Both the position numbers and the translations under genes were made by a program. Below the pieces are notes generated by a model that worked only from the letters and a program-made list of their open reading frames with translations, made no database searches and had not been told where the DNA came from. A stretch of DNA of 64,000 bases from Streptomyces sp. NBC_01463 (GTDB lineage Bacteria > Actinomycetota > Actinomycetes > Streptomycetales > Streptomycetaceae). This document shows, one piece after another, positions 45,084-64,000 of this stretch. Positions within the stretch are counted from its first letter, which is position 1. Each line of letters opens with the position of its first letter. The stretch covers positions 1,302,001 to 1,366,000 of the forward strand of contig CP109468.1 of assembly GCA_036227345.1 (NCBI GenBank), written 5' to 3'.

Positions 45084-45092
45084 CGGCACGAA

Positions 45093-45130: not shown

Positions 45131-45232
45131 GCGGGCGCTCGGCCGGACGGTCCTGAGTGGCAGCCTCCCGGCACCTCGAAGATCATGGCCCCGTCAGGAT
45201 CGCCTCGCTCCTCGCTACGGGAGGCCCACCCC

Positions 45233-47550: not shown

Positions 47551-47608
47551 GGCCGGATCCTGCCATCGGGCGACGGTGAACTCCTCCTGGTTTTCCGGGT
47601 CTCTGCTC

Positions 47609-48793
47609 TCAGACGCCGTCAGCGGCGAAAGGCCCGTCGCCGCTGAAGACCTGGCCGGCGAAGCGCTCGCCCATGCGGCGGTGGGTCGCCGCGTCCGGGT
47701 GGAGCGCGTCCGGCAGGGGCAGTTCCGCGACGTCCTGCTCGCCGTAGAGACCGCGGCCGTCGAGGTAGTACAGGTGCGGGTCGTCGGCGGCGCGCTGCCG
47801 CACCACCCGGTCCAGTTCCTCCCGGATGACCTGGAGCGTCAGCTTCCCGGCCGCGCGCTCCGCCGGGTCGCCCATGGCACGGAAGCTGAGCTTTCCCTCG
47901 GCGAGGCCGGAGAAGTCGGGCGCGCTGGGGCCCGGGGTGTCCTCGTGGATGGGGCACAGGATCGGCGAGACGACCAGGAGCGGGGTGTCGGGGTGGCCCT
48001 CGCGCAGGGTGTCGAGGAATCCGTGCACGGCCGGGGTGAAGGCGCGCAGCCGCATCAGGTCGCTGTTGACGACGTTGATGCCGATCTTGACGCTGATCAG
48101 GTCCGCGGGGGTGTCACGCATCGCGCGGGCGGTGAACGGGTCGAGCAGCGCGCCGCCGCCCAGGCCCAGGTTGATCAGCTCCACTCCGCCGAGGGAGGCG
48201 GCGAGGGCGGGCCAGGTGGTGGTGGCGCTCGCCGCGTTCGAACCGTGGCTGATCGAGCTGCCGTGGTGCAGCCAGGTCCGGCGCCCCCGGTCCGGGGCGG
48301 GCTCGACCGGGGCGTCGGTGCGCAGCGCGACGAGTTCGGTGCCCTCGTTGTACGGCAGCCAGAGCTCGACGTCCTTGTCCTCATCGCCCAGACCGTCGAA
48401 CCGGACGGTGCCCACCGGGCCGGGCCGGAAGTCGACGGAGCCGGTGGTCATGTCGACCGTGAGGACGTGGCCTCCGCTCGCGTCGGCCTGGGCGGCGAGA
48501 CGTCCGTCGACGACGAGGTCGTAGACACCGTCGGGGCGGGACGGTGCGCCGGTGTACTCCGTCTTGGTCCGCAGCGCGTCCAGCTCGATGACACCGGCCC
48601 GGGTGCGGAACACCAGCCGTACGCCGGAGGGCTGGGCCTCCGTCATGGCCACCTGGCCGTCGGGGTACTGGGCGCGGGCACGGGCGGGCAGCCGGTGCGG
48701 GCGCAGGCCGTGCTCGGTCCGCTCCAGGTCGAGGGCGCCGCGCAGGAGGCCGGCGGTGAGGGGTGTGGTGATCAGTTCGGTTCCGGTGTCCAT
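47609..48793 (-). CDS. SGNH/GDSL hydrolase
   Basis: 394 residues: N-terminal beta domain of about 180 residues and a C-terminal SGNH esterase with the nucleophile Ser in LHHGSSISHGSN, an Asn in GIN, and the Asp-His pair in LPDALHPDAATH. No signal peptide is seen, so it acts inside the cell. Downstream of the TetR gene, probably in one transcript. Substrate may be an acetylated sugar or other ester. Confidence 0.9.
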   Translation of the reverse strand: MDTGTELITTPLTAGLLRGALDLERTEHGLRPHRLPARARAQYPDGQVAMTEAQPSGVRLVFRTRAGVIELDALRTKTEYTGAPSRPDGVYDLVVDGRLAAQADASGGHVLTVDMTTGSVDFRPGPVGTVRFDGLGDEDKDVELWLPYNEGTELVALRTDAPVEPAPDRGRRTWLHHGSSISHGSNAASATTTWPALAASLGGVELINLGLGGGALLDPFTARAMRDTPADLISVKIGINVVNSDLMRLRAFTPAVHGFLDTLREGHPDTPLLVVSPILCPIHEDTPGPSAPDFSGLAEGKLSFRAMGDPAERAAGKLTLQVIREELDRVVRQRAADDPHLYYLDGRGLYGEQDVAELPLPDALHPDAATHRRMGERFAGQVFSGDGPFAADGV

Positions 48794-48857
48794 GTGTCTC
48801 TGCCTGTTGCTCGGTGGGGGTGAGGTCGCGGCGGTGGCGCCGGGGCGGTACGGGAGG

Positions 48858-49427
48858 TCAGGGGGCCGGCCAGTTGCGCAGCAGGGCGTCGAGGGCGTCC
48901 ACGACGCGCGTCCAGGACTCCTGCGAGTCGGGGGCGCTGTGGCTGAACCCGCCCTGCAGTTCCAGGCTGACGTAGCCGTGGAAGACGCTGCCCAGCAGCC
49001 GGACCGCGTGCGTCTGGTCCGGTTCGGTCAGGTCGTAGCCGCGCAGGATCGCGCGCGTCATCTGCGCGTGTCGGACCCCGGCGCTGGCGACGGCCGTCTC
49101 CGGGTCGAGCCTGAACTGTGCCGCGGCATAGCGGCCGGGGTATTCCCGGGCGTAGTCGCGGTAGACGTTCGCGAAGGCGCTCAGGGCGTCCTTGCCGGCC
49201 CGGCCGGCCAGTGCGGCGGCACCCCGGTCGGCGAGCTCCTCCAGCGCGAGCAGCGCGATCCTCGTCCTCAGGTCGTGGGAGTTCCTCAGGTGCGAGTAGA
49301 GGCTGGCGACCTTGACGTCGAACCTGCGGGCGAGCGCCGACACGGTCACCTGCTCGAAGCCGACCTCGTCGGCCAGCTCCGCACCGGCCTGCGCCAGGCG
49401 GTCCGGGGTCAGTCCTGCACGCACCAT
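48858..49427 (-). CDS. TetR-family regulator
   Basis: 189 residues: helix-turn-helix (VTVSALARRFDVKVASLYSHLRNSHDL) and a WHG-type C-terminal domain. The ATG at 49427 is preferred because GAGGAG precedes it; a longer form from 49460 is possible. A 27-bp palindrome lies 35 bases upstream and is the likely operator for this gene and the divergent P450. Confidence 0.92.
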   Translation of the reverse strand: MVRAGLTPDRLAQAGAELADEVGFEQVTVSALARRFDVKVASLYSHLRNSHDLRTRIALLALEELADRGAAALAGRAGKDALSAFANVYRDYAREYPGRYAAAQFRLDPETAVASAGVRHAQMTRAILRGYDLTEPDQTHAVRLLGSVFHGYVSLELQGGFSHSAPDSQESWTRVVDALDALLRNWPAP

Positions 49428-49461
49428 CGGCTTCTCCTCGTTCTCGGCATCACCCATCATG

Positions 49462-49488
49462 CATTTGCCTAATACCTTTAGGCAAATG
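49462..49488. promoter_or_regulatory. 27-bp TetR operator CATTTGCCTAA-N5-TTAGGCAAATG
   Basis: Perfect 11-bp arms, AT-rich for this genome, between the divergent TetR and P450 genes. This is a strong operator candidate. Confidence 0.85.
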
Positions 49489-49655
49489 GGATCGACATTT
49501 AGGGGCGCCGACGGGCCGGATCCGCCTTGCCGATCACGCCTCGGGGCGGCGGCGCCATCCGCGACATGTCCGGGCTACTCTCGACAACTCACGTACTCCA
49601 CAAGGCCGGTGACGCGCGACCCAGCCCGGCCGGACATTCAGAGCGGAGACCTTTC

Positions 49656-51023
49656 ATGTCCACGGAGACCGGCCCGGCCGTCGATGCCGGACCGCGCGGC
49701 CACAGGATCGTCCCGGGCCCCAAGGGGCTGCCCTTCCTCGGGAACATGCCGCAGTTCGGCAAGAACCCCCTCGCGTTCTTCGAGCGGCTGCGCGGCCACG
49801 GAGACCTGGTCCAGTGGCGTTTCGGCCCCAACTCATGCGTGTTCATAGCCGATCCGGAGTGCATAGGCGAACTGCTCACCGAGACGGAACGCACCTTCGA
49901 CCAGCCCGCGCTCGGCATCGCCTTCCGTACCGTGATGGGCAACGGAGTAGTGGTCGCGCGCGGGGCCGACTGGCGGCGCAAGCGCTCGCTCGTGCAGCCG
50001 TCGGTGCGCCCCAAGCAGGTCCGGTCGTACGCGGCGACCATGGCGGGCAGCACGGTGGAGCTCGCGGACACCTGGTCGGGCGGCCGGCGCATCGACATCA
50101 AGCGGGAGATGGCGGCGCTGACACAGAAGATCGCCGTCCGCACCATCTTCGGCGTCGACACCCCCGCCGACGCCGAGGCGATGGGCCGGGCGATGGATGT
50201 GGCGCAGGCGGAGATCGGCAAGGAGTTCGCGGGGATCGGCGCACTGCTGCCGGACTGGGTCCCGACCCCGGGCCGGGCCAGGATCAAGAAGGCCGCCGCG
50301 GTCATCGACGCCGAGGTGGGCCGGGTGGTCGCCCGGCACCGCGAGGGCACGGACGACCGCCCCGACCTGCTGAGCCGGCTCCTCACCGCCGTCGACGAGA
50401 CCGGGGCGAAGCTCGACGACCGGGAGATCCGCGACGAGACCGTCACCCTCTACATCGGCGGCCACGAGACGACGAGTTCGACGCTGGTGTGGGCCTGGTA
50501 CCTCCTGTCCCGCAACCCCGGGGCGCGGGCGGCGCTCTCCGAGGAGCTGGACCGGGTGCTCGGCGACCGCGAGCCGGGCTTCGACGACTACGCACAGCTC
50601 CCGTACACCCAGGCGGTGGTCAAGGAGACGCTGCGGCTCTACCCGACGATCTGGCTGGTCACCGGGGTCGCGAAGGAGGGCGCCCGGATCGGCGGGCTGC
50701 CGATCCCGGAGGGCACCAGGGTGTGGAGCAGCCAGTGGGCCACCCACCGGGACGAGCGGTGGTTCCCGGAGCCGGAGGAGTTCCGCCCCGAGCGCTGGGA
50801 CCCGGAGACGGGCGACGAGATCGCGGAGTACGCCTGGTTCCCGTTCGGCGGCGGCCCGCGGGTCTGCCTGGGCACCCGGTTCGCGATGGTCGAGGCGGTG
50901 CTGATCCTGGCGGTGCTCGCGCGGCGCTTCGACCTGGACGTCGATCCGGGCACGGTCAACCCGGTGCCGACCCTGACGCTCCAGCCCGACCGCGAGGTGA
51001 TGGCCACGGTCCGGGCGCGCTAG
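49656..51023 (+). CDS. Cytochrome P450 (class IV/CYP102-like sequence)
   Basis: 455 residues. I-helix IGGHETTSS, EXXR as ETLR, RPERW, and the haem loop FPFGGGPRVCLG with Cys are intact. Overall it resembles the eukaryote-like bacterial P450s that act on fatty acids or polyketides, but no reductase is fused. GGAG before the start. Divergent from the TetR gene that likely controls it. Confidence 0.93.
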   Translation: MSTETGPAVDAGPRGHRIVPGPKGLPFLGNMPQFGKNPLAFFERLRGHGDLVQWRFGPNSCVFIADPECIGELLTETERTFDQPALGIAFRTVMGNGVVVARGADWRRKRSLVQPSVRPKQVRSYAATMAGSTVELADTWSGGRRIDIKREMAALTQKIAVRTIFGVDTPADAEAMGRAMDVAQAEIGKEFAGIGALLPDWVPTPGRARIKKAAAVIDAEVGRVVARHREGTDDRPDLLSRLLTAVDETGAKLDDREIRDETVTLYIGGHETTSSTLVWAWYLLSRNPGARAALSEELDRVLGDREPGFDDYAQLPYTQAVVKETLRLYPTIWLVTGVAKEGARIGGLPIPEGTRVWSSQWATHRDERWFPEPEEFRPERWDPETGDEIAEYAWFPFGGGPRVCLGTRFAMVEAVLILAVLARRFDLDVDPGTVNPVPTLTLQPDREVMATVRAR

Positions 51024-51203
51024 GGCCGGGCGGCGGCCGAGCAGGCGGGCACCGGGCGACACAGATGCTGAACCGATATGTCCGATCTATCGCCATGAAC
51101 CGGGCATACCGTTCAGAATGTGCGTGTCGGCCGTAGCGGCCACCGTGGCCCCCGGGCCACGACCACACGCTGTCGATCCATGCCGATCCAGGGGAGACAC
51201 ATC

Positions 51204-51740
51204 ATGCGTCCGAGTTCCGCTCTCACCGCCGCCCTCACCGCGGCGGCCGCCCTGGCCCTGACCGCCACCGGGGCGTCGGCCACGGCCGGCGCGGCCACCC
51301 ACGGGCCGTCGGGCCGCCCGGCCCACTGCCAGGAGAAGGCCCTCAGGATCTCCGCATCGCCCGGCGGGCAGCACAACGTGGCGCGCATCGCCGTCACCAA
51401 CCGGGGCGGCCGCACCTGCGTCGTGGACCGCATCCCGACGATCACGTTCCGGGGTCTCGACGGCTCGGCCCAGCCGGTCCCGCCCGCCACCAGCGGCTCG
51501 TACGTGCTCTCGCCGGGCGAGCGCGGGTACGCCGCCGTCCGCACGGCGGAGCGGGGCACCCGTCACGGACACGTCGTCCGCAGCCTGTCGGTGGCGGCGG
51601 ACCCCGCGCACTACGGGGTCACGTTCGGCGCGGCCGCCGTGGGCATGGACCGGGGCATCCGGGTGTGGGAGCCGGTGACCACGCTGTGGCACACCTCGCG
51701 GGGCGCGGCGGACCGGGCCCTGGCCCGCGCGACGCACTGA
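51204..51740 (+). CDS. Secreted DUF4232 protein
   Basis: 178 residues: signal peptide (about 1-30) and a DUF4232 beta domain with two Cys (PAHCQEKAL, GRTCVVDRIP). GGGGAG precedes the start. The family is common in Streptomyces and has unknown function. Confidence 0.88.
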   Translation: MRPSSALTAALTAAAALALTATGASATAGAATHGPSGRPAHCQEKALRISASPGGQHNVARIAVTNRGGRTCVVDRIPTITFRGLDGSAQPVPPATSGSYVLSPGERGYAAVRTAERGTRHGHVVRSLSVAADPAHYGVTFGAAAVGMDRGIRVWEPVTTLWHTSRGAADRALARATH

Positions 51741-51800: not shown

Positions 51801-54065
51801 CTAAAGCGTCACCGTGCCCGTTCCCTCCCCCGTGGCTCCCGTCGTCTCCGCGACCACGCGGTACGGGCGGTCCGTGCCCTCGGCGGTGACGGTCAGGCTC
51901 TCCCCGTCCCGGACGATCCGGAACACGGCGGCGGTCTCGCCCGTCAGGTCCGGCACCACGACCGGCCGGCTGTCGTCGCCGGCGCCGAAGACGCGCAGCG
52001 TGAGCCCGTCCAGCCAGTCGCTGTCGGGGCGCTGGTCGTCCGCGCCCCAGGGGAGCACCGCGCCGGGGCGCACCAGGACCGGCAGGCTGTCGAAGCCGTG
52101 GGTCTCGTGGCGCCACACCGGCCCGGTGACCGTCTCGCCGGTCAGCAGGACCGTCCAGGTGCCCTCGGGGACGTAGTACTCGACCTGTCCGTCCTCCGTG
52201 AAGACGGGCGCGACCAGAAGGTCGGGGCCGAGCATGTACTGGCGGTCCAGCATCCGGGTCGTCGGGTCCCCGGGGAACTCCAGCAGCATGGGGCGCATCA
52301 TCGGGATGCCGGTGCGGTGGGCGGTGGCCGCCGCCCCGTACAGGTACGGCATCAGCCGGTGCTTGAGCAGGGTGAACTTCCGGGCGACGTCCACCGCCTC
52401 CTCGCCGAACGCCCACGGCACCCGGTAGGACACGTTGCCGTGCAGCCGGCTGTGCGAGGACATCAGGCCGAAGGCGAGCCAGCGCTTGAAGACGGCCGGG
52501 TCGGGGGTGCCCTCGAAGCCGCCGATGTCATGGCTCCAGAAGCCGAAGCCGGACAGCGAGAGGGAGAGCCCGCCGCGCAGTGACTCGGCCATCGCGGTGA
52601 AGGAGGCGAAGCAGTCGCCGCCCCAGTGCACCGGGTACTGCTGGCCGCCCGCCGTCGCCGAGCGGGCGAAGAGGACCGCCTCGCCGTGGCCGCGCTCCTT
52701 CTCCAGGAGTTCGAAGACCGTGCGGTTGTAGATCTGTGCGTAGTAGTTGTGCATCCGCTCCGGGTCGGAGCCGTCGTGCCAGACGACGTCCGTGGGGATG
52801 CGCTCGCCGAAGTCCGTCTTGAAGCAGTCGACGCCCTGGTCGAGCAGGACCCGCAGTTTGCTGTTGTACCACTCGCACGCGGCGGGGTTGGTGAAGTCGA
52901 CCAGGGCCATGCCCGGCTGCCAGAGGTCCCACTGCCAGATGTCGCCATTGGGCCGGCGCACCAGGTGGCCCAGTTCGGCGCCCTCGGCGAAGAGCGCGGA
53001 CTTCTGGGCGATGTACGGGTTGATCCACATGCTGATCCGCAGGCCGCGTTCCTTGAGCCGGGCCAGCATGCCCTCCGGATCGGGGAAGACCTCGGGGTCC
53101 CACAGGAAGTCCGACCACTGGTACTCCCGCATCCAGAAGCAGTCGAAGTGGAAGACGGACAGCGGGATGTCGCGTTCGGCCATCCCGTCGACGAAGGAGG
53201 TGACGGTCTCCTCGTCGTACGAGGTGCAGAAGGACGTGGTGAGCCACAGTCCGAACGACCAGGCCGGCGGCAGGGCGGGGCGGCCGGTCAGTGCGGTGTA
53301 GCGGGCCAGCACCTCCTTGGGCGTCGGCCCGGCGACGATGTAGTACTCCAGCGACTGGTCCTCGACGCTGAACTGCACCTGGCCGACCGACTCCGAGCCG
53401 ATCTCGAAGGAGACCTTGCCGGGATGGTTGACGAAGACGCCGTAGCCGCGCGAGGAGAGGTAGAACGGGATGTTCTTGTAGGCCAGTTCACTGCTGGTGC
53501 CGCCGTCGGCCTGCCAGATGTCGACGGTCTGGCCGTTCTTGACGTACGGCGTGAAGCGCTCGCCGAGTCCGTAGACGTTCTCGCCCACGTCCAGGGCGAG
53601 TTGGGCGACCATGTGGTGGCTGCCGTCCGGTGTGGTGGCGAAGGCGGTGCCCTTGGCGTCGACGCCGGTCAGCCGGTGGCCCTCGGCGTCGAGGAAGCTC
53701 AGGCCCCAGGGTCCGTCGCCGTCCATGCGCAGGGTCAGCGGGCCGCTGGTGAGTTCGGTGACCGCCCCGTCCCGCCGGGTGCGGGCCCCGGCGGCCGCCG
53801 GGTCGAGGCCGGGCAGCGCGAAGTCCGGTCCGCGGTGGACCCGTCCGGCGTGATGGGTGGCCCGCACGCCGATGACGCCCTCGGCCGGGGAGAAGCAGTC
53901 GACCGTGATGAGCGGGGTGTTGAGGGTGTCGCCGCGCTCGGCGACACGCTTGACCGCCGCGTGGGCGGTGAACCGGTCGTCGCCGACGCGCAGATCGCGG
54001 ATCTCGGTCGCGTAGGAGGCGCGTACGCCCTCACGCATGAGCCAGAAGCCGTCGGTGAACTTCAT
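51801..54065 (-). CDS. yicI: GH31 alpha-xylosidase
   Basis: 754 residues, similar in length to E. coli YicI. The nucleophile Asp is in KTDFGE (Asp418) and the acid/base Asp in HWGGD (Asp484), each two residues from the YicI positions. Other GH31 marks are WSFGLWLTTSF and FHFDCFWM (YicI-like xylosyl site). No signal peptide, so it works in the cytoplasm on imported xylosyl oligosaccharides. AAGGAG before the start. It follows the GH3 gene and is co-transcribed with it. Confidence 0.94.
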   Translation of the reverse strand: MKFTDGFWLMREGVRASYATEIRDLRVGDDRFTAHAAVKRVAERGDTLNTPLITVDCFSPAEGVIGVRATHHAGRVHRGPDFALPGLDPAAAGARTRRDGAVTELTSGPLTLRMDGDGPWGLSFLDAEGHRLTGVDAKGTAFATTPDGSHHMVAQLALDVGENVYGLGERFTPYVKNGQTVDIWQADGGTSSELAYKNIPFYLSSRGYGVFVNHPGKVSFEIGSESVGQVQFSVEDQSLEYYIVAGPTPKEVLARYTALTGRPALPPAWSFGLWLTTSFCTSYDEETVTSFVDGMAERDIPLSVFHFDCFWMREYQWSDFLWDPEVFPDPEGMLARLKERGLRISMWINPYIAQKSALFAEGAELGHLVRRPNGDIWQWDLWQPGMALVDFTNPAACEWYNSKLRVLLDQGVDCFKTDFGERIPTDVVWHDGSDPERMHNYYAQIYNRTVFELLEKERGHGEAVLFARSATAGGQQYPVHWGGDCFASFTAMAESLRGGLSLSLSGFGFWSHDIGGFEGTPDPAVFKRWLAFGLMSSHSRLHGNVSYRVPWAFGEEAVDVARKFTLLKHRLMPYLYGAAATAHRTGIPMMRPMLLEFPGDPTTRMLDRQYMLGPDLLVAPVFTEDGQVEYYVPEGTWTVLLTGETVTGPVWRHETHGFDSLPVLVRPGAVLPWGADDQRPDSDWLDGLTLRVFGAGDDSRPVVVPDLTGETAAVFRIVRDGESLTVTAEGTDRPYRVVAETTGATGEGTGTVTL

Positions 54066-54126
54066 GCGGACTCCTTGCCGGGGGCAGCCGGCGGGACGGG
54101 AACAGGGGTGCGTGGAGCGGCCGGGT

Positions 54127-57021
54127 TCACTCGTCGTCCCCGGTGAAGCCGATCCGGGCGAGGCGGACCGTGCCGCGCAGCGTGACGCGCAGATCGCCGG
54201 TGCCACGGGCGCTCAGCGCGGCCGGCACGGTGCGGTGGTCGTACGGTCCGGACGTGGCGGCGACGGGGACGGTGACCGTGGTCCCGCCGACGGTGACCAG
54301 GACCTCCCCCTCCCCCGCGGCGGACACCTCGATCCCCCGCACTCCGGCAGCGAAGTCGCAGCGGCGGTAGAGGAGTTCGTTGCTCTCCGCGACGGCGGTG
54401 ACGGCGTCGCCGTCCGTCCTCGTCCGGTCGGTGATCTCGGTGCCCAGCTGCTCGTCGTAGTCGGCCGCGTCCAGACCGCGGGCCAGGACCGGCCGCGGTC
54501 CGGAGGGTTCGCCGTCGACGGTGACGACGGCGACGGTCCTGATGTCGGTGCTGGAGGCGCCCGCCTGGATCTCGTACGCGCCGGGCTCGACCGTCCAGCG
54601 GCCGTGCGCGACGTCCCAGTGACCGAGCTCGGTGACCGGGACGGTGAAGTCCACGCGCTCGGCGGCGCCGGGTGCCAGGTGCAGCCGGCGGTGGCCGGCC
54701 AGCTGGCGCAGCGGCCGGACGACGGACGGGGCCACCGCCCGTACGTACAGCTGGGCGACCTCGTCGGCGGCGACGGTGCCGGTGTTGGTGACGGTGAGCG
54801 AGACGCTCAGCCGGTCGCCCTCGCGGTCGGCGGTCAGGGAGCTGTAGGTGAACTCGCTGTAGGAGAGGCCGTGGCCGAACGGGTAGAGCGGGGTGCCCTC
54901 GTAGTAGAGGTACGTCTGCCGGGAGCCGATGATGTCGTAGTCCAGCAGGCCGGGCAGCTCCGCGTCGGAGGTGTACCAGGTCTGCGGCAGCCGGCCGGCC
55001 GGGGAGACGTCGCCCGCCAGGACGCGGGCGAGCGCGGTTCCGGCGGACTGGCCGCCGTGCGCGGTCCACAGCAGGGCGGGGAGCGTGGCCGCCGCGTCGG
55101 TGAGGGCGTACGGGTAGGCGGAGGTGACCGCGAGCACGGTGCGCGGGTTGGCGGCGTGGGCGGCGCGCCAGAGGCGTTCCTGCTGGGCCGGGAGGTCGAG
55201 GGTGGTGCGGTCCTCGGTCTCGCGGCCGTTGATGTGCGGGTCGTTGCCGGCGACCACGATCACCGTGTCGGCGGCGGCCGCGGCGCGGGAGACGGCGTCC
55301 TCGCCCCGCTGGGTCACCTCCAGCTCGAAGACCGTCCCGGCAGCCGGAACCGAGCCGGAGGCTCCTTCGCCGGGGCCGGAAACTTCTTCGCCCGGCGCGG
55401 CAACCTTTACGCCGTCGGCGGCGACAGAGACATACCTACCCGTTCCCACGTGCAGAAGGCGGTGCCCGCCCGCATGCCCCTCCGCCGCCTCCAGACGGAA
55501 CGTCTCCTGGACGATCCAGCCGCCCGGCTCGTCCGCGGAGGCGCGTACGTACCCGTCCTCGGCGACCGAGAGATAGCGGCCGGCCGGTTCCCGCAGGGTG
55601 ATCACGCCGTCGCCCCAGTCGACGAGCGCCAGCTCGGACGGGGTGTCGCCGCAGGTCAGCGGGGGCAGGTCGGTACGGCCCGCGAGCAGCGCCGGGTCGA
55701 GGGCGCCTTCCGCGCCGCGCACCGGTTCCGCGCCCGCCGCCGCCTCGGGAATCCGCAGCCAGCCGTCCGCGCACCTCAGCCGGACCAGGTCGGTGCCCTC
55801 CTCGAAGACGACGTGCTCCGCGCCGAAGCGTTCCCGGAGGCCGTCCAGCGGGGTGGAGCGGTGGATCAGCGTGCCGCTGTACCAGTCGAGTTTGCAGGCG
55901 TCCGCGAGGAGTCCGACGACGGCGACGGTCTCGCCTGCTGCGGGGTCGAGCGGCAGCAGGCCCTCGTTCCTGAGCAGTACGACGGCCTGCTCGGCGGCCT
56001 CCAGGGCGAGCGCCCGGTGCTCCTCGGTGTCGAAGTCGGCGGTGTCCGCGTACGGGTCGAGCTCCGGGTCGAACTCGCCGAGCGAGAAGCGCAGTTCGAG
56101 CAGCCGGCGGACGGCGGTGTCGATGTCGTGCTCGTCGAGGAGTCCGCGTTCCAGGGCGCCCTTGACGCGGCCGGTCATGACGGACGAGTCCTGGCCGTGG
56201 TCGGTGAAGCTGTCGACACCCGCGCGCAGCGAGGCGGCCGTGGCCTCCTCGTGGGTGTCGAAGTAGTGCTCGGAGTCGACGAGGTTGGACGGCGCCCCGG
56301 CGTCCGAGCAGACCACGAGGGACCGGTCGGTCCAGGCGCGCAGCTGCTGGGACAGGAGCGGCGAGAGGTGGTTGGGCCGCCCGTTGACCAGGTTGTACGC
56401 CGGCATGACCCCGGCCACCGCGCCCGCCCGCACGGCGTCGCGGAAGGCCTTGAGGTCGTACTCGTGCAGGACCCGCGGGCGGACGGAGGACGAGGCGGTG
56501 TCGCGGTCGGTCTCGTTGTTGTGGGCGAGCCAGTGCTTGAGGACGGGGGCGGTCCGCCAGTAGAGCGGATGGTCGCCGCGCAGTCCCCGGGTGTACGCGA
56601 CCGCGATGGCGGAGGTCAGTCCGGCGTCCTCCGAGTACCCCTCCTCGCCGCGCCCCCACAGCGGGTGGCGCAGCAGATTCACGGTAGGGGCCCAGACGTT
56701 GAGGCCGACGCGGTCGTCCTGGGCGCGCTTGGCGCGGACCTCGTTGCCGACCGCCTCGCCGACGCGGCGCACCAGTTCGCCGTTCCAGGTGGCGCCCAGC
56801 CCGACGGCCTGCGGGAACATCGTCGCCGGCCCCATCCAGGCGACGCCGTGCAGGGCCTCCTGCCCGGTCCGGAAGGCGCCGAGCCCGAGCCGGCCGACCG
56901 CGGGTGCGAACTGGTGCAGCATCGCGATGCGCTCGTCGAGCGTGAGCCGCTGAAGCAGATCGTCGACGCGCTTGGCGAAGGGCAGCTGCGGGTCGCGGAA
57001 GGGCTGCGGTTGTTCCGTCAC
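54127..57021 (-). CDS. GH3 beta-glucosidase with inserted beta domain
   Basis: 964 residues. N-terminal TIM-barrel (about 1-345) with nucleophile Asp240 in VVCSDAG. A C-terminal GH3 domain is interrupted by about 150 residues (about 415-570) resembling a fascin-like beta-trefoil (GRYLSVAEDGYVRASADE; GTGRYVSVAADG). A fibronectin-III type domain (about 735-830) and a final beta-sandwich (about 845-964) follow. GTG start with AAGGGG. No signal peptide. It would remove beta-linked glucose or xylose from imported oligosaccharides. Confidence 0.92.
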   Translation of the reverse strand: MTEQPQPFRDPQLPFAKRVDDLLQRLTLDERIAMLHQFAPAVGRLGLGAFRTGQEALHGVAWMGPATMFPQAVGLGATWNGELVRRVGEAVGNEVRAKRAQDDRVGLNVWAPTVNLLRHPLWGRGEEGYSEDAGLTSAIAVAYTRGLRGDHPLYWRTAPVLKHWLAHNNETDRDTASSSVRPRVLHEYDLKAFRDAVRAGAVAGVMPAYNLVNGRPNHLSPLLSQQLRAWTDRSLVVCSDAGAPSNLVDSEHYFDTHEEATAASLRAGVDSFTDHGQDSSVMTGRVKGALERGLLDEHDIDTAVRRLLELRFSLGEFDPELDPYADTADFDTEEHRALALEAAEQAVVLLRNEGLLPLDPAAGETVAVVGLLADACKLDWYSGTLIHRSTPLDGLRERFGAEHVVFEEGTDLVRLRCADGWLRIPEAAAGAEPVRGAEGALDPALLAGRTDLPPLTCGDTPSELALVDWGDGVITLREPAGRYLSVAEDGYVRASADEPGGWIVQETFRLEAAEGHAGGHRLLHVGTGRYVSVAADGVKVAAPGEEVSGPGEGASGSVPAAGTVFELEVTQRGEDAVSRAAAAADTVIVVAGNDPHINGRETEDRTTLDLPAQQERLWRAAHAANPRTVLAVTSAYPYALTDAAATLPALLWTAHGGQSAGTALARVLAGDVSPAGRLPQTWYTSDAELPGLLDYDIIGSRQTYLYYEGTPLYPFGHGLSYSEFTYSSLTADREGDRLSVSLTVTNTGTVAADEVAQLYVRAVAPSVVRPLRQLAGHRRLHLAPGAAERVDFTVPVTELGHWDVAHGRWTVEPGAYEIQAGASSTDIRTVAVVTVDGEPSGPRPVLARGLDAADYDEQLGTEITDRTRTDGDAVTAVAESNELLYRRCDFAAGVRGIEVSAAGEGEVLVTVGGTTVTVPVAATSGPYDHRTVPAALSARGTGDLRVTLRGTVRLARIGFTGDDE

Positions 57022-57101
57022 GTGCGGGTCCCCTTGGAGAGGTGGGAGGTTTTCCGGTGCCAGTGCCTCGTGCGAGCGGCCGAGGAGCCTCGGAAGATCT
57101 T

Positions 57102-57115
57102 TCGAAGCGCTTCGA
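57102..57115. promoter_or_regulatory. LacI-type operator TCGAAGCGCTTCGA (site 1)
   Basis: 14-bp perfect palindrome about 80 bases before the GH3 gene. Extended context on the minus strand, CATCGAAGCGCTTCGAAAGA, nearly equals site 2. Confidence 0.85.
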
Positions 57116-57272
57116 TGCTCTGTGGCCAACCCCGCACGTGTCAAGGCCTCGCACCTGACCTCCGTACGCCGCACGCCCCCATTGCGCCGGGAAACGGTTC
57201 GGAAACAGGTCGGAGGAATCTCGAAACGGACTCTTGTGCGGCAAGGGACCTTCACTTAACCTCGCTGCAACA

Positions 57273-57286
57273 TCGAAGCGCTTCGA
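57273..57286. promoter_or_regulatory. LacI-type operator TCGAAGCGCTTCGA (site 2)
   Basis: Second copy, on the plus strand as CATCGAAGCGCTTCGACAGA, about 190 bases before the transporter gene. GTTTCGATGG follows as a half-site. CGAA...TTCG with a CG centre is typical of LacI-family sugar repressors. Confidence 0.85.
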
Positions 57287-57477
57287 CAGAGTTTCGATGG
57301 GGCGCCCGGCGCCCGTGATTTCCCGGGACGGCGACAGGTTCTGCCGCCCGGCTGTTGAACCGCTTCACCTGGGGCCGGTCACACCGGCCCAGCCAGCAAC
57401 GCCCCACCTCAGACACAGGAACCGAACGGCGGTCGCCCGCCACGTGTCGTCCTGGTGCGCCTCGAAGGGTTGACGCA

Positions 57478-59151
57478 ATGACGCCGAATTCCTCCCCCTC
57501 CTCCACGGCTCCGAGCCGGAGAAGCTTCCTCGCCACGGGCGCGGTCGCCGCCGTCGCCGTGGCCGGCGGGGTACCGCTGCTCGCCGCGTGCGGCGGCTCC
57601 GGCTCCGGTTCCGGGAGCAAGGAGGGCGCGACAACGGGCAAGGCCCTCAAGAAGGTTGTGCCGTCCTACGCCCCGCTGAACCTGGTCCAGCCCGATGTCG
57701 CGAGCGTCAACGGTTCGAGCCCCGGCTTCACCAAGCTGCCCGACCCGCTGGTCGTCTCGGTGAAGTCGGTCCCCGGCAAGGGCTCGAAGTTCCGGGTCAT
57801 GACGCCGCTGTGGGGAACGGTCCCGAAGAAGAACAACCCGTACTACACGGCCGTGAACAAGGCCGTCGGCGCCACGCTCGACTTCGACCCGCAGGACGGC
57901 AACACCTACCAGGACAAGATCGGCGCGGTCCTCGCCGGTTCCGACATCCCGGACGTCATGACCATCCCGGGCTGGAACATGGTGGGCCAGATCCGCAACG
58001 CGATCAGCGCCAAGTTCGCGGACCTGTCCCCCTTCCTGGCGGGCGACGCCGTCAAGAAGTACCCGAACCTGGCGAACATCCCGACGGGCGCCTGGCAGTA
58101 CTCCGTCTTCGGCGGCAAGCTGCGCGGCCTGCCCATGCCGACGCCGGTCATCGGCAACGCGATCTTCTACCGCAAGGACCTGATCGGCTCCGGCCCCGTG
58201 CCGGCCAGCGCGGACGACCTGCTGGCCTTCGGCAAGGAGTACACCGCTCCCAAGAAGAAGGTGTGGGCCTTCGACGACCTCTGGACCTGCATCCAGAAGA
58301 TCTACGGCCTGCTGCCCGACGCGCCGCACTACTGGCAGCTGGAGAACGGCAAGCTGGTCCACAAGATCGAGACGAAGGAGTACCGCGAGGCACTCGCCTT
58401 CGCCCGCAAGCTCCACGACGGCGGGTACGTCCACCCGGACGCCGAGGCCAACAAGGACGCCGACGCCAAGATCCGCTTCACCAGCGGCCACGTGGTCATG
58501 TACAACGACGGCACCGGCGGCTGGAAGGGCATGGTCACCGAACAGGCCACCGCCAACCCGAAGTTCGACATGCAGGCACTGGACTTCTTCAACCAGGACG
58601 GCGGCAAGCCGGTCCTGTGGCAGGACGACCCTGCCGGCATCTTCACCTTCCTCAGCAAGAAGCTCTCCAAGGCGCAGATCGAGGAGTTCCTCGCGATCGC
58701 CGACTACGCGGCGGCGCCGTACGGCACCGAGGAGTTCATGCTCACCAACTACGGCGTGAAGGGCACCCACTACACGCTGAAGGACGGTGCGCCGACCTTC
58801 ACCCCGCAGGGTGTCCAGGAGGCGCAGCCCTCCACCTTCCTCTTCCTCGCCTCGCCCCCGACCTCCATCGCCTACCCGGACCAGCCGCAGCTGGCCAAGG
58901 ACTACGCGGGCTGGATGGCGCGCCAGGCCCCGAACATCAAGAAGCCGCTCTTCTTCGGCATGCAGGTCGTCGAACCTCAGCGGTACGCCTCCCTGTACAC
59001 CCCCTTCGACGACCTCCAGAAGGACATCCGCCGGGGGCGCAAGAAGGTCAGCGACATCGACGAGGCCGTCAATACCTGGAAGAAGAGCGGCGGCGACAAG
59101 CTGCGCGACTGGTACCAGGACATCCTCGACAAGAACGGCTCCGGCAACTGA
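57478..59151 (+). CDS. Oligosaccharide-binding lipoprotein of ABC importer
   Basis: 557 residues. A twin-arginine type export signal (SRRSFLATG) with lipobox LLAAC (Cys38) places it on the outer membrane face. The rest is a large periplasmic-type sugar-binding fold of family 1 (WGTVPKKNNPYY, DIPDVMTIPGWNM). First gene of the rightward operon, with GAAGGG upstream. A hairpin follows it, which may favour its expression over the permeases. Confidence 0.93.
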   Translation: MTPNSSPSSTAPSRRSFLATGAVAAVAVAGGVPLLAACGGSGSGSGSKEGATTGKALKKVVPSYAPLNLVQPDVASVNGSSPGFTKLPDPLVVSVKSVPGKGSKFRVMTPLWGTVPKKNNPYYTAVNKAVGATLDFDPQDGNTYQDKIGAVLAGSDIPDVMTIPGWNMVGQIRNAISAKFADLSPFLAGDAVKKYPNLANIPTGAWQYSVFGGKLRGLPMPTPVIGNAIFYRKDLIGSGPVPASADDLLAFGKEYTAPKKKVWAFDDLWTCIQKIYGLLPDAPHYWQLENGKLVHKIETKEYREALAFARKLHDGGYVHPDAEANKDADAKIRFTSGHVVMYNDGTGGWKGMVTEQATANPKFDMQALDFFNQDGGKPVLWQDDPAGIFTFLSKKLSKAQIEEFLAIADYAAAPYGTEEFMLTNYGVKGTHYTLKDGAPTFTPQGVQEAQPSTFLFLASPPTSIAYPDQPQLAKDYAGWMARQAPNIKKPLFFGMQVVEPQRYASLYTPFDDLQKDIRRGRKKVSDIDEAVNTWKKSGGDKLRDWYQDILDKNGSGN

Positions 59152-59191
59152 CGCGTACCAGGCACAGCAGCCGTACGCAGGACAGCACGAG

Positions 59192-59220
59192 GGCCGCCGG
59201 GCGCACGACCCCCGGCGGCC
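59192..59220 (+). promoter_or_regulatory. Hairpin between binding protein and permease genes
   Basis: 10-bp stem GGCCGCCGGG / CCCGGCGGCC with a 9-base loop. In sugar ABC operons such hairpins often stabilise the binding-protein mRNA or reduce read-through. Confidence 0.55.
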
Positions 59221-59251
59221 AGGGCGGAGAGCACGACATGGGGAGCACACG

Positions 59252-60379
59252 GTGAAGCCACGGGCCACGGTCGCGACCGACCCGGACCGCACCGCCGACG
59301 GGGCCGACGCCCCGGCCGGCGGCGGCGGTGACGGAGACGGAAAAAGCGGCAGGGAAGACAGCGTCGGAAGGGCGGGCGGGGCGCGGACGACCCGCAGCCG
59401 CCGTACCCGTTCGCCGAGGAGCGGACCGGCGAGGGCCGGGACCGGATCCGGACCGCAGGCGGGCGGCATCACCTGGCGGCAACGGCTGCGGCGCGACCGC
59501 ACCCTGGTGCTGATGACCCTGCCGGCCATCGCCCTGCTGCTGATCTTCAACTACATCCCGCTGCTCGGGAACATCGTGGCCTTCCAGGACTACGACGTGT
59601 ACGACCTGGGCATCACCGGCAGTCCCTTCGTCGGCTTCGACAACTTCACCCGGATCTTCGAGGACTACCGCTTCTGGGAAGTCCTCATCAACACCCTGGT
59701 CATCTTCGTCACCCAGCTCGTCCTGTTCTTCCCCATCCCGATCGCCATCGCACTGCTGGTCAACACGATCATGAGCGCACGGGTGCGGGCCTGGGTCCAG
59801 GCGGTCGTCTATCTGCCGCACTTCTTCTCCTGGGTGCTCGTCGTCACCGTCTTCCAGCAGATGTTCGGCGGCGCCGGGCTGGTCGCCCAGTGGCTGCGCG
59901 AGCACGGCCACGAAGGCTTCGACCTGATGACCAACCCAGGGTTCTTCAAGTTCCTGGTCTCCGCCCAGGCGGTCTGGAAGGACGCGGGCTGGGGTGTGAT
60001 CGTCTTCCTCGCCGCGCTCGCCGCCGTCAACACCGATCTGTACGAGGCCGCGGCCGTGGACGGCGCCGGCCGGTGGCGCCGCATGTGGCACGTCACGCTG
60101 CCCGCGCTGCGTCCGGTCATCGCGCTCCTGCTCGTCCTGCGGGTCGGCAGCGCGCTCAACCTCGACTTCGAGCAGATCCTGCTCCAGCGCGACCAGGTCG
60201 GCGCCGGAGCGTCCGAGATCCTCGACACCTACATCTGGTGGACGGGCATCAAGACCGGCGACTTCGGCTACGCGGCCGCCGCCGGCATCTTCAAGGGGCT
60301 GTTCAGCGTCGCCATGGTGCTGGGTGCCAACAAGGTCGCCCACATGCTGGGCGAGCAGGGGGTGTACTCCAAGAAATGA
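59252..60379 (+). CDS. Sugar ABC permease 1
   Basis: 375 residues: a disordered Arg/Gly-rich cytosolic N-terminus of about 70 residues, then six membrane helices and the EAA-type coupling loop YEAAAVDGAGRWRRMWHVTLP. LplB/MalF-like. GTG start with GGGAG upstream; the start is uncertain within the low-complexity N-terminus. No ATPase gene is nearby, so a shared MsiK-type ATPase probably drives it. Confidence 0.92.
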   Translation: MKPRATVATDPDRTADGADAPAGGGGDGDGKSGREDSVGRAGGARTTRSRRTRSPRSGPARAGTGSGPQAGGITWRQRLRRDRTLVLMTLPAIALLLIFNYIPLLGNIVAFQDYDVYDLGITGSPFVGFDNFTRIFEDYRFWEVLINTLVIFVTQLVLFFPIPIAIALLVNTIMSARVRAWVQAVVYLPHFFSWVLVVTVFQQMFGGAGLVAQWLREHGHEGFDLMTNPGFFKFLVSAQAVWKDAGWGVIVFLAALAAVNTDLYEAAAVDGAGRWRRMWHVTLPALRPVIALLLVLRVGSALNLDFEQILLQRDQVGAGASEILDTYIWWTGIKTGDFGYAAAAGIFKGLFSVAMVLGANKVAHMLGEQGVYSKK

Positions 60380-61347
60380 CAACTCTCCTGGAACTCGAGA
60401 AGGACCCGGCCGGACCCGCGCCGCGCGCGGAGACCCCGCTCCAGCGTGCCCTCCGGACGGAGCCGCGTCCGGTGTGGGAGGAGGAGCCCACCAAGGCGGG
60501 CCTCGCCTTCAAGGGCTTCGGCCTCGTCGCGATCTGCGCGGTCGTGATCGTCCCGATCTGGGTGGTGCTCGTCACCAGCCTCTCCGACACCAAGGCCATC
60601 AACGACGCGGGCGGACTGGTCGTCTGGCCCAGGAGCATCACCTTCGTCGCGTACAAGGAGCTCCTCAGCGGGGGTGCGGTGACGCGTGCGGCGGCCGTGA
60701 GCGTGGGCCTCACCGTCGTCGGCACCGCGGTCAGCATGGTGGTCTCGATCCTGTGCGCGTACGGGCTGAGCCGCCGCGACTCTTACGCCCACCGGCCGCT
60801 GCTGATGACGCTGATGGCGACGATGTTCTTCGGCGCCGGCCTCATCCCGACCTATCTGCTGGTCACCGGCATCGGGCTGAGCGACAGCTACTGGTCGATG
60901 ATCCTGCCCAGCGCGATCAGCGTCTTCAACGTGCTGGTCCTGCGCGGCTTCTTCATGGACACCGCGCCCGAACTCATCGACGCGGCCCGCATCGACGGGG
61001 CCGGCGAGTGGCGGATCCTGCTCCAGATCATCATGCCGCTGTCGCGTGCGGTGATCGCCGTGATCTCGCTTTTCTACGCGGTGGGTTACTGGAGCCAGTG
61101 GTTCAACGCGATGCTCTACATCCAGGACAGCGAGAAGTACCCGCTGCAGATGATCCTGCGTCAGCTGGTCCTCCAGCACCAGGTGCCGCCGGGTGCCATG
61201 GGCGCGGCGGTCAGCAACGGGTCGATCAACAGCCTGGCCGTGCAGATGGCCGTCATGATCCTCGCCCTGATCCCGGTCGCGATCCTGTCGCCGTTCGTCC
61301 AGAAGCACTTCCAGAAGGGCATGCTCACCGGCGCCGTGAAGGGCTGA
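60376..61347 (+). CDS. Sugar ABC permease 2
   Basis: 323 residues with six membrane helices and the coupling loop LIDAARIDGAGEWRILLQIIMP, MalG/YtcP-like. Start overlaps the first permease stop (ATGA), so the pair is made together. Confidence 0.94.
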   Translation: MTTLLELEKDPAGPAPRAETPLQRALRTEPRPVWEEEPTKAGLAFKGFGLVAICAVVIVPIWVVLVTSLSDTKAINDAGGLVVWPRSITFVAYKELLSGGAVTRAAAVSVGLTVVGTAVSMVVSILCAYGLSRRDSYAHRPLLMTLMATMFFGAGLIPTYLLVTGIGLSDSYWSMILPSAISVFNVLVLRGFFMDTAPELIDAARIDGAGEWRILLQIIMPLSRAVIAVISLFYAVGYWSQWFNAMLYIQDSEKYPLQMILRQLVLQHQVPPGAMGAAVSNGSINSLAVQMAVMILALIPVAILSPFVQKHFQKGMLTGAVKG

Positions 61348-61410
61348 TCCGCCCCGCGGCCCCGGCCCCCCCCCTGTCTCCCCTCCCCCCGTCCGGAAGG
61401 TGTTCTCGCC

Positions 61411-63660
61411 ATGCGCGATTCCAGCGCGCCCACGCCCCGTCGCAGAACCGTGCTCGCGGGGGCGGCCGTCGCCGCGGCCGCGGCCGCCCTGCCGGCCGCC
61501 GGCCCCGCCTCGGCCTCGGCGGGGCACCACCACGCGGACGGCGGCGCCGAACCGCACCGCTGGCGGACCGCGGCGATCGGCGGGACGGGTTTCGTCACCG
61601 GGCTGCTGTTCCACCCCTCCGTGAAGGGACTGGCGTACGCCCGCACCGACATCGGCGGCGCCTACCGCTGGGACGGGGCGAAGGCCCGGTGGACCGCGCT
61701 CACCGACCACCTCGGCTGGGACGACTGGAACCTCCTCGGCATCGAGGCGCTCGCCGTCGACCCGGCGCACCCGGACCGTCTCTACCTGGCCTGCGGTACG
61801 TACGCCCAGGACTGGGCCGGCCCCGGCGCGGTGCTCCGCTCCGAGGACCGGGGCGCGACCTGGCGGCGGAGCGACCTGACGGTGCGGCTGGGCGCCAACG
61901 AGGACGGGCGCGGGGCCGGCGAGCGGCTGCTCGTCGATCCGCGGGACAGCGACACGCTGTGGCTCGGCACCCGGCACGACGGGCTGCTGCGCTCCGCCGA
62001 CCGGGGTGCGACCTGGGCGCCCGTCGACTTCCCGGCCACCGCGTCCGCGAACGGGCAGGGCGTGATGTTCCTCGCCGCCGCGGGCCGGGTGGTCTACGCG
62101 GGCTGGGGCGACGGGGGCGCCGCGCTGCACCGTACGGACGGTTCAGGCGGCTGGGAGGCCGTGCCCGGGCAGCCGTCCGGGAGCGCGGCGGTGAAGGTGC
62201 CGGTCCGGGCGGCGTACGACGCCCGCGACCGGGCGCTGTACGTCACTTACGCGGACGCCCCGGGCCCCAACGGCCAGTCCGACGGTTCGGTGCACCGGCT
62301 CGACACCGTGACGGACACCTGGCGCGAGGTCACCCCGGTGGCTCCGGACGCGGCGGCCGGTGACGGCTTCGGCTACGGCGGTGTCGCCGTCGACGCGCGC
62401 CGGGCCGGGACGCTCGTCGTCACGACGAACAACCGCTGGTCGCGGATCGACACGGTGTTCCGCTCCACCGACGCCGGCGCCACCTGGGCGTCGCTCAAGG
62501 ACACCGCGGTCCTCGATGTCGCGGAGACCCCCTATCTGCGCTGGGGCGGGGATTCGGCGAAGTTCGGCTGGTGGATCCAGACCGTGGCCGTCGACCCGTT
62601 CGACTCGCGCCACATCGTCTTCGGGACGGGCGCGACGGTCTTCGGGACGCGGGACCTGGTCCACTGGGCCCCGGAGATCCGGGGTCTCGAGGAGTCGTCC
62701 GTACGGTTCCTGATCGCCCCGCCGGGCAAGGGCGCCCGGCTGCTGAGCGGCCTGGGCGACATCGGGGTGATGTACCACGACTCGCTGACCGCGTCCCCGT
62801 CGCGGGGCATGGCGTCGAACCCGGTCTTCGGCACGGCCACGGGTCTCGCGCTCGCCGCGCTGAAACCCTCGTACGTCGTACGGACGGGCTGGCCGTCGGG
62901 CTCCACGGCGGCCGGGGCGTCCTCGGACGACGGCGGCAGGACCTGGCGGCCGTTCGCGGCCCAGCCGGAGATCGCCGCGTCGGCCCCCGGGCCGGTCGCG
63001 GTCTCGGCGGACGGTTCGGTGCTGCTCTGGTCGTTCGTCCACTGGGACGGCACCAAGTACCCGGCCCACCGGTCCACGGACGGCGGAGCGACCTGGACCG
63101 AGGTCGCCACCTTCCCGAAGGGCGCCGCCCCGGTCGCCGATCCGCTCGACCCGCGGCGCTTCTACGTCTACGACACCGACACCGGCGCGGTCTTCCACTC
63201 CGCCGACGCCGGTGCGACCTTCGCCCGCGGCGCGTCCGGACTCCCCTCCGGGGACGTGCAGTTCAAGGTGGCGGCGGCGCCCGGCCGCAGCGGTGACCTG
63301 TGGCTCTCCGCGAAGGACAACGGACTGTTCCGCTCGACGGACGGCGGGCTCACGTTCACGGCGGTGGCCGGCTGCCAGGCCTCGCACGCGCTGGGATTCG
63401 GCAGGGCGGCGCCGGTGAAGGGGCGAAAGCGGGCCGGTGCCGGCTATCCGGCGGTCTTCCAGACGGGACGGGTCTCCGCGACGCACGACGGCGTGGCCGT
63501 GCTGCGTTCGGACGATGCGGGCGCCACCTGGGTCCGGATCAACGACGACTCCCACCAGTGGGGGTGGACCGGTGAGGTGATCACCGGCGACCCCCGCGTC
63601 CACGGCCGTGTCCACCTGGGCACCAACGGCCGCGGCATCCAGTACGCAGAACCCGAATAG
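61411..63660 (+). CDS. Secreted GH74 xyloglucanase
   Basis: 749 residues. A twin-arginine-like signal (RRRTVLAG, about 1-37) is followed by two seven-bladed beta-propellers with Asp-box repeats (SADRGATW, STDAGATW, STDGGATW, SDDAGATW). The likely catalytic Asp residues are Asp80 (RTDIGGAYRW) and Asp450 (GLGDIGVM). No carbohydrate-binding module follows, unlike many GH74 proteins. It would cut the xyloglucan backbone outside the cell. It lies 63 bases after the permease gene. Confidence 0.93.
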   Translation: MRDSSAPTPRRRTVLAGAAVAAAAAALPAAGPASASAGHHHADGGAEPHRWRTAAIGGTGFVTGLLFHPSVKGLAYARTDIGGAYRWDGAKARWTALTDHLGWDDWNLLGIEALAVDPAHPDRLYLACGTYAQDWAGPGAVLRSEDRGATWRRSDLTVRLGANEDGRGAGERLLVDPRDSDTLWLGTRHDGLLRSADRGATWAPVDFPATASANGQGVMFLAAAGRVVYAGWGDGGAALHRTDGSGGWEAVPGQPSGSAAVKVPVRAAYDARDRALYVTYADAPGPNGQSDGSVHRLDTVTDTWREVTPVAPDAAAGDGFGYGGVAVDARRAGTLVVTTNNRWSRIDTVFRSTDAGATWASLKDTAVLDVAETPYLRWGGDSAKFGWWIQTVAVDPFDSRHIVFGTGATVFGTRDLVHWAPEIRGLEESSVRFLIAPPGKGARLLSGLGDIGVMYHDSLTASPSRGMASNPVFGTATGLALAALKPSYVVRTGWPSGSTAAGASSDDGGRTWRPFAAQPEIAASAPGPVAVSADGSVLLWSFVHWDGTKYPAHRSTDGGATWTEVATFPKGAAPVADPLDPRRFYVYDTDTGAVFHSADAGATFARGASGLPSGDVQFKVAAAPGRSGDLWLSAKDNGLFRSTDGGLTFTAVAGCQASHALGFGRAAPVKGRKRAGAGYPAVFQTGRVSATHDGVAVLRSDDAGATWVRINDDSHQWGWTGEVITGDPRVHGRVHLGTNGRGIQYAEPE

Positions 63661-63682
63661 GCACGAAGGAACGAGAGACGCC

Positions 63683-64000
63683 ATGCCGTCCCTGCGCGAC
63701 GCGGCCCGTGGCCGCATCCTCTTCGGAGGCGACTACAACCCCGAGCAGTGGCCCGAGGAGGTGTGGGAGGACGATGCCCGGCTGATGAAGGAGGCCGGGG
63801 TCAACTCCGTCACCCTCGGCGTCTTCTCCTGGGCCAAGATCGAACCGCGCCCGGGAGCGAGGGAGTTCGGCTGGCTGGACCGGCTGATGGACCTGATGCA
63901 CGCGAACGGCATCGGCGTGGTGCTCGCCACCCCCACCGCGTCCCCGCCGCCCTGGATGGGGGCGCGGCACCCGGAGACGCTGCCGCGCGCGGAGGACGGC
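63683..64000 (+). CDS. GH42 beta-galactosidase (cut by right edge)
   Basis: The first 106 residues show the GH42 N-terminus: ILFGGDYNPEQWPEEVWEDDARLMKEAGVN and FSWAKIEPRPGAREFGWLDRLMD, then GVVLATPTASPPPWM. No signal peptide. It would remove galactose from xyloglucan side chains. AAGGA is upstream, 22 bases after GH74. The catalytic Glu residues are outside the window. Confidence 0.9.
   Translation, partial: MPSLRDAARGRILFGGDYNPEQWPEEVWEDDARLMKEAGVNSVTLGVFSWAKIEPRPGAREFGWLDRLMDLMHANGIGVVLATPTASPPPWMGARHPETLPRAEDG

Follow-up and report, generated by a model that had tools for sequence, protein, structure and literature searches.

At the right end of a 64,000-nucleotide stretch of Streptomyces sp. 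NBC_01463, referred to here as the window (C1:1302001-1366000 of a 9.07-Mb genome in two contigs), two operons diverge that encode glycoside hydrolases (GH), the parts of a sugar importer and, beyond the window edge, a LacI-family regulator. Judged from gene content and control sites, they very probably form a Streptomyces divergon for the use of xyloglucan oligosaccharides, controlled by a LacI-family repressor of its own. The closest named matches of the GH3 protein and the binding protein are themselves from Streptomyces. Genes were placed by start sites, Pfam, NCBIfam and sequence matches in the PDB; the automatic open reading frame (ORF) starts of GH31, GH3, the binding protein and the permeases were rejected, and internal starts were picked by eye (ribosome-site-like sequence, homologue lengths). 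The features are listed below, positions beyond 64,000 continuing the window numbering:

51801..54065, minus strand: GH31 alpha-xylosidase of the YicI type, 754 amino acids (aa), without signal peptide (Pfam, NCBIfam, YicI alignment)
54127..57021, minus strand: GH3 exo-enzyme, 964 aa, without signal peptide (Pfam GH3, GH3_C, Fn3-like and CBM_6)
57102..57115, no strand: putative LacI-type operator TCGAAGCGCTTCGA, GH3 side (invariant in 80/80 aligned gaps)
57138..57145, minus strand: conserved CTTGACAC, a presumed -35-like promoter element for GH3-GH31 (mean conservation 0.99)
57234..57262, plus strand: -35-like TTGTGC, 17-bp spacer and -10-like TAACCT ahead of the importer operon, a presumed promoter (conserved runs)
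57273..57286, no strand: putative LacI-type operator TCGAAGCGCTTCGA, importer side (invariant in 80/80 aligned gaps)
57478..59151, plus strand: solute-binding lipoprotein, 557 aa (SBP_bac_8 Pfam)
59252..60379, plus strand: CUT1 permease 1 (BPD_transp_1 Pfam)
60376..61347, plus strand: CUT1 permease 2, overlapping permease 1 by 4 bases (BPD_transp_1 Pfam)
61411..63660, plus strand: secreted GH74 xyloglucanase with an RR-type signal (solved GH74 relatives)
63683..65659, plus strand: GH42 beta-galactosidase without signal peptide, only its first 318 bases inside the window (Pfam GH42)
65656-67908, plus strand, beyond the window: GH95, fucosidase family (Pfam GH95)
67951-68664, plus strand, beyond the window: GH12, secreted (Pfam 4.3e-19)
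68683-68704, beyond the window: perfect inverted repeat at the end of the importer operon
69736-68729, minus strand, beyond the window: LacI-family gene, convergent (Pfam 8.8e-17)
69824-69837, beyond the window: one-mismatch copy of TCGAAGCGCTTCGA upstream of the LacI gene
69913-69926, beyond the window: perfect TCGAAGCGCTTCGA upstream of the LacI gene

On the plus strand, the order is binding lipoprotein, permease 1, permease 2, GH74, GH42, GH95 and GH12, with intergenic distances of 100, -4, 63, 22, -4 and 42 bases; GH42 and GH95 share four bases and are translationally coupled. GH3 comes first on the minus strand, followed by GH31, and this operon is divergent from that of the binding protein. 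The original prediction named GH31, GH3, a binding lipoprotein, two permeases, GH74 and GH42, arranged divergently around a shared control region: every one of these genes is present by Pfam and coordinates, and the gap of 456 bp between GH3 and the binding protein, common to both operons, bears out the layout. The region to the right, proposed as the place to look for fucosidase and LacI genes, holds both, and the locus runs 5.7 kb past the right window edge (remainder of GH42, GH95, GH12 and LacI).

The GH31 barrel is matched by Pfam at E 2.7e-95, and the protein scores 1219.7 bits against the NCBIfam alpha-xylosidase equivalog PRK10658 (cut-off 606). In an alignment of 950 bits with YicI, residue D418 falls on YicI D416 in KTDFGER, HWGGDC occurs in both proteins and the CF pair is kept, in agreement with the YicI-type catalytic Asp positions claimed earlier. 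The GH74 ORF might be read as a sortilin/BNR protein from Pfam alone, a view rejected on its whole-length matches to GH74 structures: its best solved relatives include GH74 xyloglucanases, aligned over the whole chain (best E 8e-136), and D80 (RTDIGG) is aligned to the Asp of RADIGG in 2cn2, so that the RxDIGG Asp, presumably catalytic, is kept. No carbohydrate-binding module (CBM) was found in the window GH74. The genome holds a second GH74-like-repeat protein (L008 7975-10905) with a C-terminal CBM2, its DNA similar to that of the window GH74 and with no perfect operator nearby.

GH42 is matched by Pfam at E 1.1e-88 over its C-terminal 512 aa, and GH95 at E 2.3e-58, with six solved relatives; the likely substrate of the latter would be fucose or L-galactose. 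Elsewhere in the genome, GH42 and GH53 genes stand together (L009 9385-13148), likely a galactan locus. The N-termini, read by eye, show signal peptides in GH74 and GH12 and none in GH3, GH31, GH42 or GH95. Of the two secreted enzymes originally predicted, GH74 and GH42, the first is therefore secreted and the second lacks a signal peptide.

The importer genes are likewise assigned by Pfam (binding lipoprotein, SBP_bac_8 at 6.3e-12; permease 1, BPD_transp_1 at 3e-15; permease 2, BPD_transp_1 at 1.6e-6), and the best NCBIfam matches of the permeases, both under cut-off, are UgpA for permease 1 and UgpE for permease 2. The lipoprotein carries a twin-arginine signal and a Cys38 lipobox by inspection. 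The PDB contains no solved sequence relative of it at E 1e-3, and the xyloglucan binder 9PMY of Anaerocellum bescii is not among the matches listed, which excludes nothing. No ATPase gene lies in the locus. Streptomyces importers share the ATPase MsiK, so a UgpC-type ATPase outside the locus is expected, and one is encoded at C1:4155.1-4156.3 kb. MsiK is also named in PMC12772271.

The 14-bp palindrome TCGAAGCGCTTCGA would link the two operons to the regulator gene. It occurs in four perfect copies in the genome (57102 and 57273 in the gap, 69913 upstream of LacI and C1:2095025 in a gap between xylA and xylB-GH31), against about 0.02 expected from base composition; the reversed control has 0 perfect copies. 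On the importer side, the operator starts 10 bp past the -10-like TAACCT, and on the GH3 side the conserved CTTGACAC lies ahead of the other operator. Such a location relative to promoter-like elements would be the usual one for a repressor.

Conservation was followed across genomes. The named loci, being the top 80 of 310, lean toward close relatives. When the gap of the window was aligned with those of the 79 named loci that have a binding-protein match (80 sequences), all 28 operator columns were identical, and the other 428 columns averaged 0.57. Two perfect gap sites are present in 80/80 named loci and in 30/30 loci fetched across the genus, and in most of these 30 the binding protein has diverged to 47-57% identity with both gap sites kept. 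A perfect site also stands upstream of LacI here and in all four named loci that hold that region. Many named loci end at locus or contig edges; within them, GH42 is found in 75, GH95 in 64, GH74 in 53, GH31 in 32, GH12 in 23 and LacI in 16, and the 16 loci with LacI in range include GH95 in 15 and GH12 in 12.

The distribution of the site was counted in a fixed set of 150 Streptomyces genomes, this one among them, with the binding protein scored as present at 500 bits or more. At least two sites occur in 73/73 genomes with the binding protein vs 5/77 without it, and the whole sample holds 349 operator sites vs 22 reversed-control sites. In a phylum-wide sample of 296 genomes, the binding protein (E 1e-50) was found in nine, seven of the same genus and two from other families, and neither operator nor GH3 lies within 1.5 kb on each side of the two non-genus homologues (G346 and G398). 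One further homologue of the binding protein (L037, G037:C17:95620-97290) has a single in-frame TGA, which may reflect either a disrupted gene or an error in sequencing.

Extra sites outside the locus were examined in 20 regions from 10 genomes, taken from part of the site list over the 150 genomes. Six lie ahead of a binding protein-permease operon leading into GH31, two ahead of GH31 itself and four ahead of LacI-family genes (one by Pfam, three by similarity to that one); one lies ahead of a GH5-CBM_X2-CBM46 gene, one ahead of a GH36-like gene and one by GH43 and GH51 genes. Remote GH31 genes were also taken as the starting point. Within 1.5 kb upstream of 30 such loci there are eight perfect sites and one with a single mismatch; for 20 of the other 21 (L206 was left out), 18 perfect and two one-mismatch sites were found within the 4.4-6 kb examined upstream, ahead of the binding protein-permease operon leading into GH31. 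The alpha-xylosidase thus keeps its operator when it stands outside the locus. In the one of the 20 regions tested, a second permease is present in this remote operon.

The fourth perfect site of this genome belongs to a region (L042 3154-13055; G000:C1:2091153-2101054) with a second xylA|xylB pair, whose xylB is followed by a second GH31, and with one more CUT1 importer and GH1. The xylA|xylB operator was considered as a general feature of the regulon and rejected, only 2/30 xylA loci fetched having one; in this genome it is a local addition. Another xylA (minus strand) and xylB (plus strand) lie with a ROK-like regulator at window 38657-42884, 9-13 kb left of the locus, with no perfect operator between them.

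From the gene families and their order, the signal peptides, the predicted operators, their conservation and their genomic co-occurrence, all observed in the DNA, a substrate, a direction of regulation, an effector and an order of trimming can be inferred. Secreted GH74 and GH12 would cut xyloglucan outside the cell. The lipoprotein, exported by the twin-arginine translocation (Tat) route, and the two CUT1 permeases would import the oligosaccharides, powered by the ATPase encoded elsewhere. In the cytoplasm, GH95 would then release fucose (or L-galactose), GH42 galactose, GH31 xylose and GH3 backbone units; gene content supports the earlier suggestion that oligosaccharides might be imported whole and trimmed inside the cell. 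When substrate is absent, LacI dimers would occupy the operator next to each divergent promoter start, as well as the one ahead of the LacI gene, and an imported oligosaccharide or a product of it would free LacI from these sites. The same operator between xylA and xylB-GH31 might tie xylose use to the LacI switch in this genome.

The step assigned to GH3 is less secure. The protein has a GH3_C domain (Pfam E 1.6e-47) and, by inspection, the catalytic pair (CSDAGA, NGRETEDR); searches with cut pieces add an insert resembling Fascin (E 3e-4, short of the curated cut-off) and, at the C-terminus, a CBM6-like module (E 1.6e-8). Its structure model (predicted local distance difference test score, pLDDT, 66.3; poor barrel) was too poor to serve in fold searches or active-site models. 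At subsite -1 the protein has the motif GQEALHG with Glu55, where GH3 beta-glucosidases have Asp. The aligned homologues have Glu at this position in 59/59 cases, and both EmGH1 (FEECLHG) and a beta-xylosidase (HEECLTG) have their Glu in the same column. In the PDB alignments, the TDGPHG Asp of 8va7 is not in the Glu55 column, and the contrast between Asp and Glu is therefore drawn from PMC6987092 and these two Glu-type rows. According to that work on Rhodothermus GH3 enzymes, beta-glucosidases carry Asp at subsite -1 and Glu in its place may decide between a preference for xylose and one for glucose; Asp, not Glu, gives room for the CH2OH of glucose (PMC6987092).

The claim that GH3 removes glucose is consequently not secured, and two readings of this enzyme have to be weighed. 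That it is the backbone beta-glucosidase, like Glu3A of Ruminiclostridium cellulolyticum, is about evenly balanced between true and false. The equivalent step has been demonstrated in that species (PMC4780118), GH3 adjoins the operator in all 80 named loci (loci that were fetched by GH3 itself), and two Glu-type Rhodothermus GH3 enzymes are dual beta-xylosidase/beta-1,4-glucosidases (PMC6987092); against it stand the invariant Glu55, which would not fit the glucose CH2OH, and the top NCBIfam score, a beta-xylosidase model at 449 bits, far under its cut-off of 1250. With Glu at subsite -1, the glucosidase step may therefore belong to another enzyme. A tentative and rather less probable proposal is that GH3 is a cytoplasmic enzyme acting on xyloglucan oligosaccharides to release either isoprimeverose, as a whole xylosylated unit, or beta-xylose, with the YicI-type GH31 then cleaving isoprimeverose; the remote same-operator binding protein-permease-GH31 operon of other Streptomyces would be a second importer, for the small product isoprimeverose. 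The isoprimeverose-producing GH3 of Oerskovia, also an actinomycete, likewise has a CBM6 (PMC6325624). If this were true, a single LacI switch would govern two importers, each for a different size of the one substrate.

For the locus as a whole, several observations weigh against a dedicated xyloglucan divergon under LacI, the Glu at subsite -1 of GH3 and the scarcity of xylA sites among them. The link between LacI and the operator rests on position. With one mismatch allowed, this genome gives 8 sites vs 6 for the reversed control, so only perfect sites are used as evidence and one-mismatch sites alone are rejected. Of the 428 gap columns outside the sites, 34 likewise reach at least 0.99, partly in promoter-like stretches, and the Fisher p of 2e-37 for the co-occurrence of sites and binding protein ignores relatedness. 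GH74 stands between permease 2 and GH42 in 53/74 named loci and was not found there in 21/74, and GH31 adjoins GH3 in only 28/72; the gene set is thus not fixed. Five of the 20 extra-site regions are in or beside ORFs without assignment, and G144 and G148, which lack the binding protein, still have the GH31 operon with its site.

Two other explanations were weighed. Under the first, the locus would serve beta-glucans more broadly or mixed hemicelluloses: GH74 and GH12 would be general endo-glucanases, the importer would take up cello- or gluco-oligosaccharides, and GH31, GH42 and GH95 would be chance neighbours with other substrates. The GH12 and GH3 families are indeed not specific to xyloglucan, and two extra-site regions hold GH36-like and GH43/GH51 genes. 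However, the GH31 equivalog is an alpha-xylosidase whose gene follows the operator even outside the locus, the frequencies of GH42 (75/80) and GH95 (64/80) do not suit chance neighbours, and one extra site precedes the GH5-CBM_X2-CBM46 gene. The cellobiose-type box TGGGAGCGCTCCCA is also not in the gap between GH3 and the binding protein, one copy being found at a different LacI locus (L044:5136); this explanation appears very unlikely. The second, in which a different protein such as the xylobiose regulator BxlR or a xylose ROK protein recognises the operator and the adjacent LacI is incidental, also seems unlikely from the position and distribution of the sites. TCGAAGCGCTTCGA does fit the loose form of the reported BxlR motif, CGAANxTTCG (PMC12772271), a ROK-like gene (under cut-offs) lies in the window at 38657-39901, and in some genomes such a site is followed by another LacI gene, which in the single case compared is 49% identical to the LacI of the window locus. 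But the perfect site upstream of the adjacent LacI recurs in 4/4 named loci that include that region, and across genomes the number of sites tracks the xyloglucan binding protein, with a site in only 2/30 xylA loci fetched. The divergon under its own LacI-family repressor remains the preferred account.

Right of LacI are a PL1 pectate lyase-CE8 pectinesterase fusion and a GH43 gene (L007 6049-9268), not counted in the locus, followed by an unusual 911-aa ORF fusing a terpene synthase to a cytochrome P450 and then a polyprenyl synthetase (L007 9790-13678; window numbering 73790-77678). To the left, window 44705-51740 holds an Asp-Al exchanger-like permease, a GDSL hydrolase, a TetR regulator, a P450 and a DUF4232 protein, and window 728-4715 holds genes for lipid transport of the Mce type (MlaD/Mce4, a pair of MlaE permeases and an ATPase).

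Plant walls contain xyloglucan as one of their main hemicelluloses, and Streptomyces rank among the major decomposers in soil. Of six Streptomyces strains tested, four are reported to grow on tamarind xyloglucan, the locus not being named in the part cited (PMC11475409). A study of the tomato rhizosphere, in its Cellvibrio/Streptomyces section, counts a xyloglucanase and an alpha-xylosidase among the genes whose variants are associated with plant loci (PMC9203511). Given a defined operon set and a 14-bp operator that follows it in 73/150 genomes sampled within the genus, the regulon could be counted in any Streptomyces genome and its regulator tested directly.

Among known systems, the Bacteroidetes XyGUL, described in 2014 by Larsbrink, is reportedly a discrete locus with an endo-xyloglucanase, GH31 and GH3, and is said to use SusC/SusD outer-membrane import and periplasmic trimming. 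It differs from the Streptomyces locus in having no ATP-binding cassette (ABC) importer and no cytoplasmic trimming; no SusC/SusD pair was found in the locus, the importer genes being BPD_transp_1 and SBP_bac_8. The original prediction held that such sets are well known in Gram-negative loci and that a version in actinomycetes with an ABC importer is less described, which is half right: PMC4780118 demonstrates an import system of this type for R. cellulolyticum and PMC12710961 models one for A. bescii, but no report of a Streptomyces version with a LacI operator, nor of a Streptomyces xyloglucan LacI regulon or the palindrome TCGAAGCGCTTCGA, was found in the open-access literature.

The R. cellulolyticum locus (Gal42A, Xyl31A, Glu3A, SBP2458 and two transmembrane-domain proteins, TMDs) is alike in its family-1 binding protein, two permeases, cytoplasmic GH42, GH31 and GH3, and external GH74, and no ATPase is named in the part cited, as here none lies in the locus (PMC4780118). 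Its xyloglucanases are cellulosomal, whereas GH74 and GH12 lie inside the Streptomyces operon, and fucosidase genes occur in some of the clusters compared with it (PMC4780118, Fig. 12 legend). That cluster holds a two-component system (PMC4780118), XygS/XygR being reported as a positive regulator (PMC10766802), whereas the Streptomyces locus has LacI and palindromic operators; no two-component system was found beside the importer, where all called genes from 51801 to 69736 are assigned and the regulator is LacI, the rest of the genome not having been searched. A. bescii, a thermophile, likewise has a CUT1 importer with GH31 in the locus (Athe_2052-2057), a shared ATPase elsewhere and an extracellular GH74; its GH42 and GH74 genes lie elsewhere in the genome, a putative fucosidase lies nearby, and a LacI operator is not mentioned in the part cited (PMC12710961). 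For the switch itself, the nearest likeness is the CebR regulon of Streptomyces, with a LacI-family repressor, a 14-bp GCGC-centred palindrome and carbohydrate-active enzymes as targets (PMC4898821), and computed LacI sites beside actinobacterial importers have a precedent for cellobiose (PMC3377646, PMC4898821). The CebR box is TGGGAGCGCTCCCA (PMC4898821), whereas the site in this locus is TCGAAGCGCTTCGA, with enzymes that remove side chains among its targets. The locus is real, conserved and well delimited; its kind is already known, and its switch is new as far as the open-access literature shows.

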